NCBI GenBank assembly: GCA_025617745.1
Contig: CM046871.1
Span: 29,776,433 to 29,840,432, forward strand
Direction of reading: 5' to 3'
Length of the DNA stretch: 64,000 bases
DNA from: Heliocidaris erythrogramma
Taxonomy: Eukaryota; Echinodermata; Echinoidea; Camarodonta; Echinometridae
Shown here one piece after another: positions 17,698 to 63,889 of this stretch. The position numbers and the translations under genes were made by a program. Position 1 is the stretch's first letter, and each line of letters starts with the position of its first letter. Below the pieces are notes generated by a model that made no database searches, was not told where the DNA came from, and was given only the letters and a program-made list of their open reading frames with translations.

Positions 17698-18577
17698 GAA
17701 TGTATGACATTTGCTCCGGCGGCAATTGCTCCTGCGACAAATGCTCCTAAAACTACGACAATTGCTCCGCGACAATTGCTCCGCGATAATTGCTCCTGCG
17801 ACAATTGCTCCGTCGACATTTGCTCCTGCGATAATTGCTCCGACGACATTTGCTCCTGCGACAATTGCTCCGTCGACATTTGCTCCTGCGACAATTGCTC
17901 CGTCGACATTTGCTCCTGCGACAATTGCTCCGTCGACATTTGCTCCGATCGAGCGACAATTGCTCCGCGACAACTGCTCCGTCGATAGAAATGCAAATAT
18001 GCGACAATTGCCCCTGCGACAATTGCTCCGCGACATTTGCTCCGATCGATCGACAATTGCTCCGTCGATAAAATGAATATATGTGACAATTGCTCCGTCG
18101 ACATTTGCTCCGATCGAGCGACAATTGCTCCGTCGATAAAATGAATATATGAGACAATTGCGACAATTGTTTCTGCAACAATTGTTTTGTCGACATTTGC
18201 TCCGATCGAGCGACAATTACCTACTCCGCGACAACTGCTCCGTCGATAATAATGAATATATGCGACAATTGCTCCGCCGATAAAAATGAATATGCGACAA
18301 TTGCTCCGCGACAATAAACTCAGTAAATAGAAATAAATATTTGCTCCGTCGACATTTGCTCCGGCGACATTAGCTCCGGCGGAAAGCACTCGATCCGCCG
18401 ACATTTGTTTCATTCGAGCGACAATTCCTTCGCGACATTAGCTCCGTCAAATAAAATGAATATGTGACAATATCATTGGTCCGCAACAATTGCTCATGCG
18501 ACAACTAATTGTCCGCCGACATCTGTTCCGTCGGCCGTCGTTAATGCTTATGTATGTGACAATTGCTCCAACGACAA
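17698..18577. repeat. Left arm of TU-like element
   Basis: It runs from regular 15-bp units in the outer 300 bp to a longer module (units separated by AT-rich spacers like cgataaaatgaatatatg) and degenerate units at the inner end. Confidence 0.85.
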
Positions 18578-20906: not shown

Positions 20907-21829
20907 GTCTCGACATACATGTATTTCGAGATATTCGAGATATCTCGAGGCAATGATATTGTCGCATATTCATTTTCTTCGACGGAGCTAATGTCGCGGA
21001 GGAATTGTCGCTCAAATGGAGCAAATGTTGGCGGAGCAATTGTCGATGAGCAAATGTCGCATATTCCTTTTTATCTACCATGTCTACCGAGTTTATTGTC
21101 GCGGAGCAATTGTCGCATATTCATTTTTAACGACTGAACAATAATCATATTTTGGAGCAATTGTCGCAGGAGCAATTGTCGCATTTCTATCGACGGAGCA
21201 GTCAGTTGTCGCGGAGCATTTGTCGCTCGATCGGAGCAAATGTTGACGGAGCAATTGTCGCAGGAGCAATTGTCGCATATAAGCATTTCTGTCGACGGAG
21301 CCGTTGTCGCTCGATCGGAGCAAATGTCGACGGAGCAATTGTCGCATATATGCATTTCTATCGACGGAGCAGTTGTCGCGGAGCAATTGTCGCTCGATCG
21401 GAGCAAATGTCGACGGAGCAATTGTCGCATATATGCATTTCTATCGACGGAGCAGTTGTCGCGGAGCAATTGTCGCTCGATCGGAGCAAATGTCGACGGA
21501 GCAATTGTCGCAGGAGCAATTGTCGCATATATGCATTTTTATCGACGGAGCAGTTGTCGCGGAGCAATTGTCGCTCGATCGGAGCAAATGTCGACGGAGC
21601 AATTGTCGCAGGAGCAAATGTCGACGGAGCAATTGTCGCAGGAGCAAATGTCGTCGGAGCAATTGTCGCAGGAGCAAATGTCGCCGGAGCAATTATCGCA
21701 GGAGCAAATGTCGACGGAGCAATTGTCGCAGGAGCAATTATCGCGGAGCAATTGTCGCGGAGCAATTGTCGTATTTTTAGGAGCATTTGTCGCAGGAGCA
21801 ATTGCCGCCGGAGCAAATGTCGGTTCCCC
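20907..21829. repeat. Right arm of TU-like element
   Basis: Inverse of the left arm. Between about 21305 and 21560 an 83-bp higher-order unit (five 15-mers plus spacer) repeats about three times, so the arm has expanded independently of the left one. Confidence 0.85.
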
Positions 21830-29975: not shown

Positions 29976-30559
29976 CGTATCCGGACACCTACCCCCTGGA
30001 CAACCACCCCCCGGATAACCACCCCTAGGATAACCACCCTCTAGGACAACTACCCCTAGGACAACCACCCTCTAGGACGACTACCCCCTAGGACAAGTAC
30101 CCCCGGATAACTACCCCCCCAGACAACTACCCCCTAGGACAACCACCCTCTAGGACAACTACCCCCCGGATAAGTACCCCCCGGACAACTACCCCGGACA
30201 ACTACCCCCGGACAACTACCCCTGGACAACTACCCCCGGACAGCTACCCCGGACAACTACCCCCAGGGACAACTACCCTCCGTAGTTGTCCTAGGGGGTG
30301 GTTGTCCGGGGGGTAGTTGTCCAGGGGGTAGTTGTCGGGGGGTAGTTGTCCGGGGGGTAGTTGTCCTAGAGGGTGGTTGTCCTAGGGGATAGTTGTCTGG
30401 GGGGTAGTTATCCGGGGGTACTTGTCCTAGGGGGGTAGTCGTCCTAGAGGGTGGTTGCCCTAGGGGTAGTTGTCCTAGGGGGTAATTGTCCTAGAGGGTG
30501 GTTATCCTAGGGGTGGTTATCCGGGGGGTGGTTGTCCAGGGGGTAGGAGTCCTAGAACC
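29976..30559. mobile_element. 584-bp hairpin element made of short tandem repeats
   Basis: The left arm (to about 30276) is a run of 13-16-bp units like ggacaactaccccc, with variants aggacaaccaccctct and ggataactaccccc. The right arm (from 30282) is the inverse, and the order of variant units in the outer 200 bp matches between arms. The five-base centre is 30277-30281. The outer flanks share gtgaaggac (29967-29975 and 30560-30568), a likely target duplication. The architecture parallels the TU-like foldback, but the repeat unit is unrelated. Confidence 0.8.
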
Positions 30560-37200: not shown

Positions 37201-38119
37201 AAGATTAATGTGGTTAAAACGGCTACTTTATGGGGAAAGGAAGATGCAATTGAAACTTTACTTTGACTATCGCTTTCGAAAAGTGGGTGGAAGGTTTATA
37301 TCCCTGTGTAATTGTATTGACTTTTAAAGCACCATTGTTTTATTTAGAGATTCTAAAGGCTTATTGGCAAGATATGGACATAAACATGAATGCCTTTGTA
37401 GAAAAAAGCTAATCCAGTCTGTTTCAAAAATAAAAATTACCTTTCTAAAAGTGAAATAATTTTTGATGAAGACTTACTTAAGAAAGAAATTTATCTAGTG
37501 AATCACATTTTAGAGAAAGAGCAGGTGAAAACAATTGATTATTTCTATAACTTAGGTTTAAGTAGTGAAAATATTGTGGAAATTTGGAAGATAAGTGATG
37601 CAGTTTTGAAAACGGAAAATATGAAGGGAACTTATACGATGTCTATTCTGTTGATGTAGACAAAAACAATATTTCGTTGAAGATTTTTGAAAATATCATT
37701 CTGTTGAAAGATGTACCATCCAGAAAGGTTTTAGGACTTATTTGTAACGAATCTACAACAATTATATACTCTACGAGTAAGAGATGGCCACAATGAGTTT
37801 GAGTACTCCAAGAAAGAAATCGCAGACATTTTCATAAGAACTATAGAATATCAACAATTTTTTTGAGTGGAAAGATGTATATGTGGGGATAACTGGAAAG
37901 GACCTTGTAATACAGTAATCTTTTAAATAAAATACATTATTTTCAGGTCATGGTCGGAGGGTGTAGTTCCTATTAAGGAGAGCATTTTCAATAGATAGAA
38001 TATCGAGATAAAGAAAAGGCAATAGTTATGAAAAGGAATAGGTTAGACAAGCATTAATTTGTTAAAGTGACAGAGGTTGTATGAAAACAGCATGACCGAG
38101 GGCGGTATCCATGAGTGAG

Positions 38120-38153
<34 letters not shown>

Positions 38154-41100
38154 CGTTTGTTTAGCATTATGTCCGAGGACATTTTCGGACAGAGAACAAA
38201 AAAAAATCATGACAACAATGGTCCTCGGAAGGCGGACAATAGTCCTCGAACGTCGAACAATGAATTTGTGCTTTATTCCGTCGACTGTCCGAGGACGAGT
38301 AACAATAGAGGAACAATAGTTGTCCTCGGAAGTAAAGCAATGTAAAGCTGTGTGTGTGTGTGTGTGTGTGTGTAAAGGAGGGGGAAGGGTGCAGGGAGGC
38401 CAGTACAGTGTATATGCAGCAATATGATAAATATCCCCCCTCGTTAATGGGGGGGGGGGGGCTATTTTATGAAAAGATTTCATTCAAACACGCTTTCTTT
38501 ACAGTTTTGAATTCTAGTTATTCATTTAGAGAAGACTTTACAATTGTTATAAACATTCATTGAAAAGATCGCAGACATTTTCATAAGACCTATAGAATAT
38601 CAACATTTTTTTTTGAGTGGAAAGATGTATATGTGGGGATAACTGGAAAGGACCTTGTAATACAGTAATCTTTTAAATGAAATACATTATTTTCAGGTCA
38701 TGGTCGGAGGGTGTAGTTCCTATTAAGGAGATCATTTTCAATAGATAGAATATCGAGATAAAGAAAAGGCAATAGTTATGAAAAGGAATAGGTTAGACAA
38801 GCATTAATTTAATTTGTAAACAAATTTTTAGGCATTTTACTCCCAGTGTTAAAGATCGTATGCTCGATCTGTAATGAAAAACACAAGTCAGAAAAAATTG
38901 GAACCAGCGGGATTCGAACCTGTCATCTACTGCTTGCCGGGCAGCGACTTAACCACCAGGCTATTCTGGTTCACGGCCAAGTCACGATGAACTGGAATCA
39001 AATACCCAAGATCCTCTTCTTTCTGACTCATTAATATTCAAACGGTCCGCCGTAGACAATGGTTAGTAAACGAAGAAGCTTGATGGGAGGAATTTTAATT
39101 TGTAAACAAATTTTTAGGCATTTTTCTCCCAGTGTTAAAGATCGTATGCTCGATCTGTAATGAAAAACACAAGTCAGAAAAAATTGGAACCAGCGGGATT
39201 CGAACCTGTCATCTTCTGCTTGCCGGGCAGCGACTTAACCACCAGGCTATTCTGGTTCACGGCCAAGTCACGATGAACTGGAATCAAATACCCAAGATCC
39301 TCTTCTTTCTGACTCATTAATATTCAAACGGTCCGCCGTAGACAATGGTTAGTAAACGAAGAAGCTTGATGGGAGGAATTTTAATTTGTAAACAAATTTT
39401 TAGGCATTTTACTCCCAGTGTTAAAGATCGTATGCTCGATCTGTAATGAAAAACACAAGTCAGAAAAAATTGGAACCAGCGGGATTCGAACCTGTCATCT
39501 ACTGCTTGCCGGGCAGCGACTTAACCACCAGGCTATTCTGGTTCACGGCCAAGTCACGATGAACTGGAATCAAATACCCAAGATCCTCTTCTTTCTGACT
39601 CATTAATATTCAAACGGTCCGCCGTAGACAATGGTTAGTAAACGAAGAAGCTTGATGGGAGGAATTTTAATTTGTAAACAAATTTTTAGGCATTTTACTC
39701 CCAGTGTTAAAGATCGTATGCTCGATCTGTAATGAAAAACACAAGTCAGAAAAAATTGGAACCAGCGGGATTCGAACCTGTCATCTACTGCTTGCCGGGC
39801 AGCGACTTAACCACCAGGCTATTCTGGTTCACGGCCAAGTCACGATGAACTGGAATCAAATACCCAAGATCCTCTTCTTTCTGACTCATTAATATTCAAA
39901 CGGTCCGCCGTAGACAATGGTTAGTAAACGAAGAAGCTTGATGGGAGGAATTTTAATTTGTAAACAAATTTTTAGGCATTTTACTCCCAGTGTTAAAGAT
40001 CGTATGCTCGATCTGTAATGAAAAACACAAGTCAGAAAAAATTGGAACCAGCGGGATTCGAACCTGTCATCTACTGCTTGCCGGGCAGCGACTTAACCAC
40101 CAGGCTATTCTGGTTCACGGCCAAGTCACGATGAACTGGAATCAAATACCCAAGATCCTCTTCTTTCTGACTCATTAATATTCAAACAGTCCGCCGTAGA
40201 CAATGGTTAGTAAACGAAGAAGCTTGATGGGAGGAATTTTAATTTGTAAACAAATTTTTAGGCATTTTACTCCCAGTGTTAAAGATCGTATGCTCGATCT
40301 GTAATGAAAAACACAAGTCAGAAAAAATTGGAACCAGCGGGATTCGAACCTGTCATCTACTGCTTGCCGGGCAGCGACTTAACCACCAGGCTATTCTGGT
40401 TCACGGCCAAGTCACGATGAACTGGAATCAAATACCCAAGATCCTCTTCTTTCTGACTCATTAATATTCAAACGGTCCGCCGTAGACAATGGTTAGTAAA
40501 CGAAGAAGCTTGATGGGAGGAATTTTAATTTGTAAACAAATTTTTAGGCATTTTACTCCCAGTGTTAAAGATCGTATGCTCGATCTGTAATGAAAAACAC
40601 AAGTCAGAAAAAATTGGAACCAGCGGGATTCGAACCTGTCATCTACTGCTTGCCGGGCAGCGACTTAACCACCAGGCTATTCTGGTTCACGGCCAAGTCA
40701 CGATGAACTGGAATCAAATACCCAAGATCCTCTTCTTTCTGACTCATTAATATTCAAACAGTCCGCCGTAGACAATGGTTAGTAAACGAAGAAGCTTGAT
40801 GGGAGGAATTTTAATTTGTAAACAAATTTTTAGGCATTTTACTCCCAGTGTTAAAGATCGTATGCTCGATCTGTAATGAAAAACACAAGTCAGAAAAAAT
40901 TGGAACCAGCGGGATTCGAACCTGTCATCTACTGCTTGCCTGGCAGCGACTTAACCACCAGGCTATTCTGGTTCACGGCCAAGTCACGATGAACTGGAAT
41001 CAAATACCCAAGATCCTCTTCTTTCTGACTCATTAATATTCAAACGGTCCGCCGTAGACAATGGTTAGTAAACGAAGAAGCTTGATGGGAGGAATTTTAA

Positions 41101-44100
41101 TTTGTAAACAAATTTTTAGGCATTTTACTCCCAGTGTTAAAGATCGTATGCTCGATCTGTAATGAAAAACACAAGTCAGAAAAAATTGGAACCAGCGGGA
41201 TTCGAACCTGTCATCTACTGCTTGCCGGGCAGCGACTTAACCACCAGGCTATTCTGGTTCACGGCCAAGTCACGATGAACTGGAATCAAATACCCAAGAT
41301 CCTCTTCTTTCTGACTCATTAATATTCAAACAGTCCGCCGTAGACAATGGTTAGTAAACGAAGAAGCTTGATGGGAGGAATTTTAATTTGTAAACAAATT
41401 TTTAGGCATTTTACTCCCAGTGTTAAAGATCGTATGCTCGATCTGTAATGAAAAACACAAGTCAGAAAAAATTGGAACCAGCGGGATTCGAACCTGTCAT
41501 CTACTGCTTGCCGGGCAGCGACTTAACCACCAGGCTATTCTGGTTCACGGCCAAGTCACGATGAACTGGAATCAAATACCCAAGATCCTCTTCTTTCTGC
41601 CTCATTAATATTCAAACGGTCCGCCGTAGACAATGGTTAGTAAACGAAGAAGCTTGATGGGAGGAATTTTAATTTGTAAACAAATTTTTAGGCATTTTAC
41701 TCCCAGTGTTAAAGATCGTATGCTCGATCTGTAATGAAAAACACAAGTCAGAAAAAAATCGTGACTTGGCCGTGAACCAGAATAGCCTGGTGGTTAAGTC
41801 GCTGCCGGCAAGCAGTAGATGACAGGTTCGAATCCCGCTGGTTCCAATTTTTTTAGTAAACGAAGAAGCTTGATGGGAGGAATTTTAATTTGTAAACAAA
41901 TTTTTAGGCATTTTACTCCCAGTGTTAAAGATCGTATGCTCGATCTGTAATGAAAAACACAAGTCAGAAAAAATTGGAACCAGCGGGATTCGAACCTGTC
42001 ATCTACTGCTTGCCGGGCAGCGACTTAACCACCAGGCTATTCTGGTTCACGGCCAAGTCACGATGAACTGGAATCAAATACCCAAGATCCTCTTCTTTCT
42101 GACTCATTAATATTCAAACGGTCCGCCGTAGACAATGGTTAGTAAACGAAGAAGCTTGATGGGAGGAATTTTAATTTGTAAACAAATTTTTAGGCATTTT
42201 ACTCCCAGTGTTAAAGATCGTATGCTCGATCTGTAATGAAAAACACAAGTCAGAAAAAATTGGAACCAGCGGGATTCGAACCTGTCATCTACTGCTTGCC
42301 GGGCAGCGACTTAACCACCAGGCTATTCTGGTTCACGGCCAAGTCACGATGAACTGGAATCAAATACCCAAGATCCTCTTCTTTCTGCCTCATTAATATT
42401 CAAACGGTCCGCCGTAGACAATGGTTAGTAAACGAAGAAGCTTGATGGGAGGAATTTTAATTTGTAAACAAATTTTTAGGCATTTTACTCCCAGTGTTAA
42501 AGATCGTATGCTCGATCTGTAATGAAAAACACAAGTCAGAAAAAATTGGAACCAGCGGGATTCGAACCTGTCATCTACTGCTTGCCGGGCAGCGACTTAA
42601 CCACCAGGCTATTCTGGTTCACGGCCAAGTCACGATGAACTGGAATCAAATACCCAAGATCCTCTTCTTTCTGACTCATTAATATTCAAACGGTCCGCCG
42701 TAGACAATGGTTAGTAAACGAAGAAGCTTGATGGGAGGAATTTTAATTTGTAAACAAATTTTTAGGCATTTTACTCCCAGTGTTAAAGATCGTATGCTCG
42801 ATCTGTAATGAAAAACACAAGTCAGAAAAAATTGGAACCAGCGGGATTCGAACCTGTCATCTACTGCTTGCCGGGCAGCGACTTAACCACCAGGCTATTC
42901 TGGTTCACGGCCAAGTCACGATGAACTGGAATCAAATACCCAAGATCCTCTTCTTTCTGACTCATTAATATTCAAACGGTCCGCCGTAGACAATGGTTAG
43001 TAAACGAAGAAGCTTGATGGGAGGAATTTTAATTTGTAAACAAATTTTTAGGCATTTTACTCCCAGTGTTAAAGATCGTATGCTCGATCTGTAATGAAAA
43101 ACACAAGTCAGAAAAAATTGGAACCAGCGGGATTCGAACCTGTCATCTACTGCTTGCCGGGCAGCGACTTAACCACCAGGCTATTCTGGTTCACGGCCAA
43201 GTCACGATGAACTGGAATCAAATACCCAAGATCCTCTTCTTTCTGACTCATTAATATTCAAACGGTCCGCCGTAGACAATGGTTAGTAAACGAAGAAGCT
43301 TGATGGGAGGAATTTTAATTTGTAAACAAATTTTTAGGCATTTTACTCCCAGTGTTAAAGATCGTATGCTCGATCTGTAATGAAAAACACAAGTCAGAAA
43401 AAATTGGAACCAGCGGGATTCGAACCTGTCATCTACTGCTTGCCGGGCAGCGACTTAACCACCAGGCTATTCTGGTTCACGGCCAAGTCACGATGAACTG
43501 GAATCAAATACCCAAGATCCTCTTCTTTCTGCCTCATTAATATTCAAACGGTCCGCCGTAGACAATGGTTAGTAAACGAAGAAGCTTGATGGGAGGAATT
43601 TTAATTTGTAAACAAATTTTTAGGCATTTTACTCCCAGTGTTAAAGATCGTATGCTCGATTTGTAATGAAAAACAAAAGTCAGAAAAGAATCGTGACTTG
43701 GCCGTGAACCAGAATAGCCTGGTGGTTAAGTCGCTGCCCGGCAAGCAGTAGATGACAGGTTCGAATCCCGCTGGTTCCAATTTTTTTAGTAAACGAAGAA
43801 GCTTGATGGGAGGAATTTTAATTTGTAAACAAATTTTTAGGCATTTTACTCCCAGTGTTAAAGATCGTATGCTCGATCTGTAATGAAAAACACAAGTCAG
43901 AAAAAATTGGAACCAGCGGGATTCGAACCTGTCATCTACTGCTTGCCGGGCAGCGACTTAACCACCAGGCTATTCTGGTTCACGGCCAAGTCACGATGAA
44001 CTGGAATCAAATACCCAAGATCCTCTTCTTTCTGACTCATTAATATTCAAACAGTCCGCCGTAGACAATGGTTAGTAAACGAAGAAGCTTGATGGGAGGA

Positions 44101-47100
44101 ATTTTAATTTGTAAACAAATTTTTAGGCATTTTACTCCCAGTGTTAAAGATCGTATGCTCGATCTGTAATGAAAAACACAAGTCAGAAAAAATTGGAACC
44201 AGCGGGATTCGAACCTGTCATCTACTGCTTGCCGGGCAGCGACTTAACCACCAGGCTATTCTGGTTCACGGCCAAGTCACGATGAACTGGAATCAAATAC
44301 CCAAGATCCTCTTCTTTCTGACTCATTAATATTCAAACGGTCCGCCGTAGACAATGGTTATTAAACGAAGAAGCTTGATGGGAGGAATTTTAATTTGTAA
44401 ACAAATTTTTAGGCATTTTACTCCCAGTGTTAAAGATCGTATGCTCGATCTGTAATGAAAAACACAAGTCAGAAAAAAATCGTGACTTGGCCGTGAACCA
44501 GAATAGCCTGGTGGTTAAGTCGCTGCCCGGCAAGCAGTAGATGACAGGTTCGAATCCCGCTGGTTCCAATTTTTTCTGACTTGTGTTTTTCATTACAGAT
44601 CCAGCATACGATCTTTAACACTGGGAGTAAAATGCCTAAAAATTTGTTTACAAATTAAAATTCCTCCCATCAAGCTTCTTCGTTTACTAACCATTGTCTA
44701 CGGCGGACTGTTTGAATATTAATGAGTCAGAAAGAAGAGGATCTTGGGTATTTGATTCCAGTTCATCGTGACTTGGCCGTGAACCAGAATAGCCTGGTGG
44801 TTAAGTCGCTGCCCGGCAAGCAGTAGATGACAGGTTCGAATCCCGCTGGTTCCAATTTTTTCTGACTTGTGTTTTTCATTACAGATCGAGCATACGATCT
44901 TTAACACTGGGAGTAAAATGCCTAAAAATTTGTTTACAAATTAAAATTCCTCCCATCAAGCTTCTTCGTTTACTAACCATTGTCTACGGCGGACTGTTTG
45001 AATATTAATGAGTCAGAAAGAAGAGGATCTTGGGTATTTGATTCCAGTTCATCGTGACTTGGCCGTGAACCAGAATAGCCTGGTGGTTAAGTCGCTGCCC
45101 GGCAAGCAGTAGATGACAGGTTCGAATCCCGCTGGTTCCAATTTTTTCTGACTTGTGTTTTTCATTACAGATCGAGCATACGATCTTTAACACTGGGAGT
45201 AAAATGCCTAAAAATTTGTTTACAAATTAAAATTCCTCCCATCAAGCTTCTTCGTTTACTAACCATTGTCTACGGCGGACTGTTTGAATATTAATGAGTC
45301 AGAAAGAAGAGGATCTTGGGTATTTGATTCCAGTTCATCGTGACTTGGCCGTGAACCAGAATAGCCTGGTGGTTAAGTCGCTGCCCGGCAAGCAGTAGAT
45401 GACAGGTTCGAATCCCGCTGGTTCCAATTTTTTCTGACTTGTGTTTTTCATTACAGATCGAGCATACGATCTTTAACACTGGGAGTAAAATGCCTAAAAA
45501 TTTGTTTACAAATTAAAATTCCTCCCATCAAGCTTCTTCGTTTACTAACCATTGTCTACGGCGGACTGTTTGAATATTAATGAGTCAGAAAGAAGAGGAT
45601 CTTGGGTATTTGATTCCAGTTCATCGTGACTTGGCCGTGAACCAGAATAGCCTGGTGGTTAAGTCGCTGCCCGGCAAGCAGTAGATGACAGGTTCGAATC
45701 CCGCTAGTTCCAATTTTTTCTGACTTGTGTTTTTCATTACAGATCGAGCATACGATCTTTAACACTGGGAGTAAAATGCCTAAAAAATTGTTTACAAATT
45801 AAAATTCCTCCCATCAAGCTTCTTCGTTTACTAAGCATTAATTTGTTAAAGTGACAGAGGTTGTATGAAAACAGCATGACCGAGGGCGGTATCCATGAGT
45901 GAGTGTGTGCGTGTGTGTGAGCGTGTGAGGGTTTGTGCTTGCATATTCGCTACCTAGTGGAGACAAATTTGAGTTCATCACCGACCTTATGGAGACTGAA
46001 TTTCTTGTGGAGACATCAAATCTTGTTCCATAAGGAAAAATAGCGTAGAATTACTTCACACACCTATTTGGTAGTGCCCCCCCCCCCTTTAGAGTGATGT
46101 CTCCAGAGAGCATGCCCTACGTTAGGATGAAGTGTGTGAGACAAATCTGTGCGAGTGTGAAAAAACTTTCCTGACAGTCACCGGCGAGGGCGCTCGTCGA
46201 ACGAACACCATATGTAGGATAAGTAGGAAAAATAGCCCCCGTACAGAAAATATTATTTTTTCCCCCTGACTAGTACTACTACTATTATTATTATCATCAT
46301 CATCATTATTAATGAATAGATACTATGAATAATAGATACACAAATGCATACACCTTGACTCCATAAGGATGATTCATAAGGATGGTACCGAACTCGTATA
46401 GATGTCTCCGTAGAGAAATGTTGCATAAGGTAGGGAATATGCGTATGCGTGTGTGTGTGTGTGTGTAAAGGAGGGGGAAGGGTGCAGGGAGGCCAGTACA
46501 GTGTCAGTTTCAGTTCAGTTTTTATTTTTTTTCATTTCCAACGAAAAGAAATATACAATTCACATACATCATTAAATCAACAAAGTAGGATACACGCAAT
46601 ACAACACATAAATATAACAGTATTGTAGATTAGATAAGATGTACCAAACTATTGCAGTATGAAAAATAATTTTATGAATGTTTGGTTGGAAATGGAGAGG
46701 TCCACTGTGAAGCTAAGCTTGTAAATTGTGGACCCCTCAGGTGAAAGTATTCAATAATAGTAATTTACATAACAAAAAATAACGAGAATAATGGCCAACA
46801 GAGAGGGGAAAGCATTATGATAAATATCCCCCCTCGTTAATGGGGGGGGGGGGGGGGCTATTTTATGAAAAGATTTCATTCCAACACGCTTTCTTTACAG
46901 TTTTGAATTCTAGTTATTCATTTACAGAAGACTTTACAATTGTTATAAACATTCATTGAAATATTGACTTATGATTCATGTATTATCCTTGTGTGAAATC
47001 AAAATAAAGATCATTGAAAATAAAAACGTTTATAAATTCCTACATTTTTTTCTAGCATTAAAATGGGGGTGGATGTGAGAAATTTCTTCCCTTTGATTTT

Positions 47101-62716: not shown

Positions 62717-63694
62717 TTAGTACCTGGTATGGCCACCTGTGGGACGCACCAGTGCCTCCACACGCCGTGGCATACTGTCCACAAGGTTGTTGATGGTGTT
62801 CAAGGGCATGCATCCCACTCTTCGGTCAGTGCCTGGGCTAACTCCTGCACATTTTGAGGATGATTGTTTCTCTCACTGATGGGACGGCTCAATGCATCCC
62901 AGTCGTGCTCAATGGGGGTTCATGTCGGGGCAGGCCAAGGCATCTGCTGCACGTCCTCTGCGTCAAGGAATTCCCTGACCAGACGTGCCCTATGTGATCG
63001 AGCGTTGTCGTCTTGGAGCTGAAAGTTATTGCCATATACTCTTCTCGCGTATGGAAGACAATGGCGTTCCAGGATATCGCGGTACACGACGGCGTTGACG
63101 TTTCCTTCAGGTGCAGCCAATGGCGTTTTTCCGCCATAATGTATTCCGACCCATACCATCACTGAGCCTCCACCTGCTTGATTGGTTTCCTGGACACAGT
63201 CATTACGGAGGTTCTCGCCCCACAATCGTCGAACCCTCTGCCTCCCATCGGTGCGGTCAAGGATGTAACGGAGTGCCATCTCCTGTGGCTCCTAGCCCAC
63301 TGGAGTCGAGCAACCCGGTGGCGAACAGTGAGACGTGGAACCTTGGTCATTCGCCGAGCTCTGTAGCTATGTTGGACAAGTCTCCTGTTTACGGTTTCCC
63401 TTGAAACGTTCACTCCGAAGTGCCTCCTCCACAAGTGGCAAAGACGACTCGCTGGCATTCTCCGGTTCCTACGGCACATGTTCAGCAGTTGACGGTCATC
63501 CCGTGCGGATGTTCTTCGTGGTCGACCTGTAGATCTCTCTGGACTCAAAGTACCCGCCTCTCGATGTCTTCTGAGGATGCGGCACACACAACTCTGCGAT
63601 AGTCCAAGAATACCTGCAATCTGGCCTGTGTCCGTCCATTCCGTCGGAATGCAAGGACCCTCTGACGAATTACAAGTGCCGTTGGGCGAGGCAT
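62717..63694 (-). pseudogene. Decayed Tc1-like transposase
   Basis: The minus-strand start MPRPTALVIRQRVLAFRRNG is followed by a helix-turn-helix region (CRILRRHREAGTLSPERSTG), GRPRRT linker, SRETVNRRL, WARSHRRW, GGSVMVWVGI, and the DDE core LQDDNARSHRARLV. The C-terminal part IEHDWDALSRPISERNNHPQ ends near GGHTRY and a stop. Length (about 325 codons) is right for Tc1, but the frame shifts near 63590, between 63310 and 63160, near 62925 and near 62815. No terminal inverted repeats were seen. Inactive. Confidence 0.88.
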
Positions 63695-63817
63695 AGTGTA
63701 AGGAATGGTAAGTATTGGTAGGCCATTATATAGCGTACGCATGGAATTGGTATGGATGTACCCCCTACGCTCGATGGAAAGAGAGGGGCTATATGTGAGA
63801 TTGTTACTTCGACGGGA

Positions 63818-63889
63818 GCCCGGATAGCTCTGTTGGTAGAGCACTGGCCATGTAATCCAGGGTCCCGGGTTCGAATCCCGGTCGGGGCA
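63818..63889 (+). tRNA. tRNA-Thr-like sequence (anticodon TGT)
   Basis: Acceptor GCCCGGA/TCGGGGC (one mismatch), D stem GCTC/GAGC, anticodon stem CTGGC/TCCAG (last pair unpaired), loop CATGTAA, T arm CCGGG-TTCGAAT-CCCGG perfect. The A box TAGCTCTGTTGG and B box GGTTCGAATCC are good. A33 replaces the usual U33 and the variable loop has four bases. It could be a tRNA pseudogene or SINE head; a T4 run appears within 10 nt. Confidence 0.6.

Follow-up and report, generated by a model that had tools for sequence, protein, structure and literature searches.

Self-repeat analysis of a 64-kb stretch of the Heliocidaris erythrogramma genome (contig CM046871.1, positions 29,776,433 to 29,840,432 of the forward strand; called the window) detected a tandem array of near-identical 286-bp units at 38811-45832. 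A first-pass annotation, made from the sequence alone, had described a 7-kb array over this interval, and the interval proved to be exactly that of an insertion of 7,022 bp. The insertion is bounded by a 12-bp target-site duplication, AAGCATTAATTT, on the left (38799..38810, plus strand) and on the right (45833..45844, plus strand). Self-comparison of the window identified near-copies of the left (97.9%) and right (95.3%) flanks of the array at 37819-38060 and 38049-38154, respectively. Because AAGCATTAATTT is single in this flank copy, at 38049-38060, and doubled around the array, the array is a discrete insertion. The flank copy without the insertion (37819..38154, plus strand) may be a paralogous tandem duplication or a mis-joined allele, and either serves as an empty site. 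We also noted that 37819-38565 and 38568-46961 are flanking tandem duplicates with 95-98% identity over four blocks; they could be a mis-joined haplotype pair.

The insertion contains two arms. The left arm (38811..44478, minus strand) is made up of 286-bp units, including two shortened variant units, and starts from an outer end site that we call B (AATTTGTAAACAAATT; 38811..38826, minus strand), while the right arm (44479..45832) carries units on the plus strand and terminates at a second site, A (CGTTTACT; u14-21, where u denotes a position in the unit; 45825..45832, plus strand). Each site is the putative start of one of two reverse-transcription products. The arms meet in a head-to-head junction at 44478..44479 (u189 on the minus strand to u98 on the plus strand). 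Among the 25 tRNA-like cores, 18 lie on the minus strand and 7 on the plus strand, and the orientation switches at 41757/8, 41853, about 43687-43690, 43786 and 44478/9; the array is thus not a single head-to-tail run, and the first-pass annotation had missed the changes of strand.

Two of the cores lie in the shortened units, where the tRNA segment is inverted within the minus arm. In variant V1 (41758..41853, plus strand) the inverted segment is u98-194 and the anticodon loop is one base short, and V2 (43690..43786, plus strand) carries this inversion too, along with additional changes next to the junction. Since both variant units, at 41.8 and 43.7 kb, carry the inner junction of 44478/9, they would be its descendants. 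We had considered that the inverted piece was a reverse-transcribed Pol III (RNA polymerase III) transcript, and set this aside because its junction is the inner junction of the insertion, so that descent is the simpler account. The internal orientation switches of this array may be an assembly error; as a general cause of strand switches, an assembly artefact is argued against by the 20 other two-armed copies described below.

Relative to the consensus, full units had 0-3 differences in 286 positions (excluding the unit at the array edge and the three units at orientation switches), and the mean pairwise identity of 19 contiguous units was 99.64%. The locus therefore is a long homogeneous tandem array, and the earlier description of it as a tRNA-derived satellite was right as to form. 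Only one frame of at least 90 codons was listed within the array (118 codons). No open reading frame (ORF) with a reverse transcriptase (RT) and a GIY-YIG endonuclease was present in the array, which was not classed as an autonomous Penelope-like element (PLE), and an exact 20-base scan of IMG/VR gave no match.

A tRNA-like module within the repeat unit

A representative unit on the minus strand comprises a tRNA-like, Pol III-type module (39464..39560; u98-194) with an A box, a C33-GGC loop, a B box and a T6 run, a body and 3' region containing end sites B and A (39349..39463; u195-23), and a 74-bp leader or linker that completes the unit (39275..39348; u24-97). The first-pass annotation had all 25 copies keeping the boxes, the acceptor pairing and the terminator. 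The A box, B box, 5' acceptor strand and T6 were indeed exact in 25/25 cores, but the 3' acceptor strand was exact in 24/25, and the anticodon arm with its C32-C33-GGC loop in 23/25. ARAGORN called no tRNA in the array, and Rfam gave no hit there at the gathering cut-off or up to an E value of 1. When a single unit was submitted, the best Rfam hit was tRNA-Sec with 19.4 bits (E = 0.19), below the cut-off of 47. The tRNA scores of the array are weak. In line with the earlier view, the product is unlikely to act as a translating tRNA. A divergent copy at another locus (L005), which has a better T stem, was called as tRNA-Ala(GGC) by ARAGORN; no call was made on the unit in ten other loci.

Across loci, the A and B boxes were the least changed part of the unit (7/826 cells, compared with 201/6,895 outside the tRNA-like part; p = 1.4e-4). 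This comparison used 35 loci (L002, L020 and L038 were dropped), and the p value is only a guide, because the copies share ancestry and this array served as the reference. The constraint suggests that the module was of importance to the source lineage, and together with the boxes themselves and the call at L005 it is what would be expected of an internal Pol III promoter of tRNA origin, as judged from sequence. The T6 run lies mid-unit (u189-194), however, whereas in a SINE (short interspersed element) the terminator would stand at the 3' terminus. T6 is followed by 115 bp holding both end sites, and since it precedes A and B, the predicted Pol III transcript of ~97 nt could not be the mobilised template. 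The sense strand of the unit folded more stably than 60 shuffled sequences (z = -4.1 as a linear and -4.6 as a circular molecule), in comparison with z values of -0.7 and -0.5 for the antisense strand. A hammerhead ribozyme, and with it a retrozyme proper, was rejected as no core motif and no Rfam hammerhead hit were found in the unit.

These properties bear on the proposal, made earlier, of a functional tandem Pol III gene array; a related possibility is an array binding TFIIIC, either being kept for its product or for an effect on chromatin. The low rate of change in the boxes, their retention with T6 in all 25 cores and the tRNA-Ala(GGC) call at L005 would fit such a function. Nevertheless, we found nothing that directly supports it and consider it highly improbable, since the array is just one of many mobile insertions, tRNA calls are absent from it, C33 and weak stems mark its cores, and the constraint on the boxes is explained equally well by the life cycle of the element itself.

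Dispersed copies and their insertion sites

Matches to the unit were found at 86 places on many contigs of the 1.06-Gb genome (E <= 0.001), in a search where the best 40 of 84 first-look candidates were scored. Copies were fetched and mapped onto the unit, and 35 distinct insertions were kept, among them the array in the window; 21 are two-armed and 14 one-armed. Set aside from the counts of ends were L001, which is the array itself, and L008, L010 and L012, whose arrays are complex, extend beyond the retrieved sequence or, in L012, reach a run of N. Duplicates (L002, L020, L038 and one block of L034) and one block of L035 at the edge of its stretch were also dropped.

All 21 two-armed copies were head-to-head, the left arm being on the minus and the right arm on the plus strand, so that both 3' sides face outward; none was tail-to-tail. 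An array terminating in plus-then-minus order, unlike these 21, was seen in the uncounted locus L008 (1796-2070). The inner junctions of the 21 insertions were all different, and therefore each two-armed copy arose independently rather than as a copy of an inverted element of fixed structure. Loci L002 and L003 share a left flank and an inner junction yet differ in unit number, so that array length changes after insertion; the two represent one insertion in duplicated loci ~119 kb apart. Identity between units was 97.2-99.8% within the six arrays compared and 93.5-98.5% between arrays. Some arms exceed one unit in length, which suggests that the RNA template held more than one unit. The right arm of L015 and the left arms of L021 and L036 have 5' ends at u24-26, adjoining end site A, three cases hinting at a natural RNA 5' end near this position.

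Exact flank repeats of at least 10 bp were present in 14/39 insertion blocks but in only 4/1,482 mispaired controls, and eight of the 14 were exactly 12 bp long. Inspection added L003 and L028 (one mismatch) and removed L020 as a duplicate of L019, to give 15 duplications in 35 insertions. These were concentrated in two-armed copies (14/21, as against 1/14 one-armed copies; Fisher p = 5.6e-4), and no clear duplication was seen in the other 13 one-armed copies. Lengths of 13 and 17 bp, and of 10 bp where the test window cut the repeat short, are compatible with 12 bp plus shared bases; that of L019 is 11 bp as it stands. Because the unit is dispersed, each two-armed copy has its own inner junction and 14/21 of them carry a duplication of ~12 bp, the family is a mobile element that also forms arrays. 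This overturns the earlier contrast between the array and SINE scatter. A Helitron-borne satellite was dropped because a target duplication is present.

The target itself was examined at 13 sites, leaving out L019 and L030, where the register of the duplication was ambiguous. It is palindromic and AT-rich, with TT|GTTt at each nick; in the pooled target strands T was found in 20/26 at -2, 20/26 at +2 and 21/26 at +3, and the 12 bp were 80% A+T. The two-fold symmetry of the site and the near-fixed stagger point to a dimeric endonuclease that would cut the target.

Most outer ends of the insertions fell at two places in the unit. We defined two windows, A (u14-33) and B (u259-279), after the ends had been seen, and 43/56 outer 3' ends lay in one or the other compared to 14% expected; with windows drawn post hoc, the nominal p value is too small. 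Two-armed copies accounted for 32 of these ends (32/42), and the 3' end of one-armed copies was at A or B in 11/14, with varied 5' ends. All 12 insertions in which both ends could be classed have one A and one B end (p = 0.0015 if 12 A and 12 B labels are paired at random). When target duplications were considered, A ends mostly lay close to u21 and B ends mostly close to u271-275, a spacing of 32-36 nt. The terminal bases of the element are not fixed, since the ends vary by ~10 nt and share bases with the duplication; ends A and B, TTAGTAAACGAA and TTTGTAAACAAA, agree at 10/12 positions. A DNA transposon with fixed ends was rejected on account of this variation.

Three other origins for such a set of insertions can be weighed at this point. 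An inert satellite of tRNA origin, without machinery of its own and disseminated through circular DNA and end joining, would account for homogeneity that is high within arrays and mostly lower between them, and for the bases shared at junctions. We regard it as scarcely credible, as duplications of ~12 bp, a palindromic target and two preferred outer ends point to an enzyme. A DNA transposon of the foldback type, with A and B as its two distinct ends and the copies as internal-deletion derivatives, would be in keeping with the A and B pairing in 12/12 insertions, the likeness of the two ends, the palindromic target with a duplication of near-fixed length, and the further foldback-like repeats within the window. 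This too is very unlikely, because the terminal bases vary and overlap the duplication, each two-armed insertion counted has a separate inner junction, one-armed copies with a single end exist, and no transposase lies between the arms in the copies mapped.

The third is a tRNA-derived SINE mobilised by a LINE (long interspersed element), in which two-armed copies would be produced by twin priming and arrays by later satellite expansion. Twin-primed copies are a minority among LINE insertions; their inverted segment begins at an internal position of the RNA, and the length of the target duplication varies. The tRNA-derived part with its A and B boxes, the one-armed copies with recurrent 3' and varied 5' ends, and the shared junction bases are all features that a LINE could provide. 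The layout of the present insertions is unlike that of LINE products: the 3' sides point outward in every two-armed copy, about three-quarters of the ends fall at two sites, the duplications cluster at 12 bp, and T6 is mid-unit instead of 3'-terminal. We therefore consider this origin unlikely.

Penelope-like features of the insertions

We consider it probable that the array represents a single insertion of a small retroelement of ~286 nt, non-coding and non-autonomous, with a tRNA-derived module, mobilised by Penelope-type machinery and locally expanded into a satellite. According to the available text of PMC11167929, an anole PLE protein cuts and extends each of the two target strands, preferring AT-rich sequence, and begins reverse transcription at two internal sites whose spacing equals the known 30-40-bp tail of genomic copies. 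Rotifer Penelope copies with an inverted pLTR (pseudo-long terminal repeat) on the 5' side and the tail on one arm are described in the accessible part of PMC3846280. The insertions reported here have head-to-head arms, two starts with a tail on one arm, and an AT-rich target that is duplicated. A Penelope mode is proposed for this element because both-strand priming, two starts one tail apart and an inverted arm match the published PLE signature; that the partner of the unit is a PLE is what we infer.

The host genome contains candidate sources of such a protein. A search for GIY-YIG domains gave 121 matches from the best 150 scored of 1,721 first-look candidates, not all of which need be PLEs; the locus L039, for instance, was not PLE-like in appearance. 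Locus L047 has an RT and a GIY-YIG domain in one frame, both above the Pfam cut-offs, and the RT match in the related L050 was below its cut-off. In the L047 family a tail of ~36 nt was present on exactly one arm in 4/4 loci with both arms in view (L046, L048, L049 and L050), a layout like the pairing of one A with one B end in the 286-bp element. L045 was rejected as a further example as its left arm continues into family sequence. Unlike the 286-bp element, the family (L043, L044 and L046-L050) has its ends in or beside (TA)n in the seven loci in view. A second and a third host PLE family were inspected and showed no readable pair of ends.

Several observations weigh against a Penelope-type origin. 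Clear duplications were not seen in 7/21 two-armed copies, and 10/42 of their outer ends lay at neither A nor B. The start site did not differ between strands in the available text of PMC11167929, while here each insertion uses one of each, and the rotifer duplications given in the accessible part of PMC3846280 are 8 and 9 bp, compared to 12 bp here. The host PLE copies showed no 12-bp duplication, which would be unreadable there because these copies lie in or next to (TA)n. Comparison of the unit with 12 GIY-YIG loci, a small and partly redundant sample of the PLEs in the genome, showed no significant similarity (best E value 0.46 over 20 bp), and no autonomous partner was found among them. 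PLEs carry a minimal hammerhead in the pLTR, and its lack in the unit also belongs here; Rfam found none in ten GIY-YIG loci (L041-L050) either, which makes the hammerhead test of the unit a weak one.

If Penelope-type machinery is responsible, a PLE protein dimer would nick the two target strands 12 bp apart, and each nicked 3' end would prime reverse transcription within an RNA of several units, with one start at site A and the other at site B. The two cDNAs would then join at a random inner junction, and the tandem would expand in place by unequal exchange, to 7 kb in the present case. The tRNA-derived module may have been kept as a functional part, serving as a promoter, an RNA-binding element or a processing signal.

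The element can be compared with several known systems. It resembles PLEs (Poseidon PAc and rotifer Penelope), as presented in the available text of PMC11167929 and PMC3846280, in the head-to-head inverted arm, the tandem units, a pair of start sites that leave one arm with a 30-40-nt tail, priming on both strands, and an AT-rich target with a duplication. It differs from them in that it lacks an ORF for RT or endonuclease, gave no hammerhead, possesses a tRNA-derived module and has a duplication of ~12 bp. With metazoan non-LTR (long terminal repeat) retrozymes it shares non-coding, low-GC tandem units of 150-450 bp in dimers to large arrays, a structured sense RNA, and target duplications of more than 4 bp (available text of PMC7229834 and PMC7761336). 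Unlike retrozymes it has a tRNA-like module in place of a detectable hammerhead, and it is laid out head-to-head, whereas the word "inverted" is absent from the accessible part of PMC7229834.

Like tRNA-derived SINEs, the element is short, non-coding and dispersed, with A and B boxes of tRNA origin and 5'-truncated copies, but its mid-unit terminator, tandem multimers, two-armed insertions, near-constant duplication length and PLE-type ends set it apart. The Sm-alpha satellite of Schistosoma has Pol III-like boxes. It is similar in being described as a non-autonomous retrotransposon, and differs in carrying a type I hammerhead (available text of PMC6155905). PcH-Sat of Patella likewise has satellite units traceable to a SINE-like element; it lacks A and B boxes, is ascribed to a truncated Nin-SINE, and no PLE insertion signature is described for it in the accessible part of PMC11121367. 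No title among those listed in our broader literature searches concerned a Penelope-mobilised tRNA-derived element, and we do not claim that none has been published.

SINEs are held to depend on LINEs. The evidence is evenly balanced for the wider proposal that the family represents a class of SINE partnered by a Penelope-like element and not by a LINE: tRNA-derived, with no detected hammerhead, primed on two strands from two internal start sites, with copies born head-to-head and able to seed a satellite. Were this so, it would link tRNA-derived repeats to a copying machinery that is not the one usually assumed. It would also hint at what mobilises metazoan retrozyme-like repeats; in the text available from a 2020 review (PMC7761336), this machinery could not be deduced from the sequence of metazoan non-LTR retrozymes. 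A tRNA module combined with a Penelope insertion signature would widen current views of the partners of SINEs and retrozymes. For the poorly known Penelope mechanism, the family would supply a natural set of insertions with readable junctions, bearing on both-strand priming, tail choice and the palindromic target, and it would show how such insertions seed satellites.

Neighbouring genes and other repeats

The array had been placed inside a laccase intron. Pfam matches to multicopper-oxidase domains lie downstream of it, on the plus strand at 48.2-51.0 kb, and a putative cysteine-rich upstream exon near 47.4 kb was read from an open frame with no Pfam match; the array ends ~1.6 kb upstream of this exon. 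No laccase exon was found upstream of the array among the open frames and Pfam matches of the window, and the intronic position is no more than putative. Elsewhere in the window, a receptor gene shows 84% identity to a galanin receptor 2a-like protein from Lytechinus variegatus.

Other repeats were noted in passing. Foldback-like inverted tandem arrays of a 15-bp motif, GACAATTGCTCC, lie ~2.5 kb apart at 17706-18478 and 20951-21822, and head-to-head inverted arrays of another 15-bp motif, GGACAACTACCCCC, almost touch at 29983-30278 and 30282-30555. A palindromic stretch, TTGTAAAATCAGCACTGATTTTCTTATTTAC, common to the right flank of L002 and to L055 is perhaps another small transposon. Tc1/mariner-type transposase frames occur in two pieces (62920-63725 on the minus strand and 63818-63889 on the plus strand), beside a tRNA-Thr(TGT) that scored 52.3 bits in Rfam.

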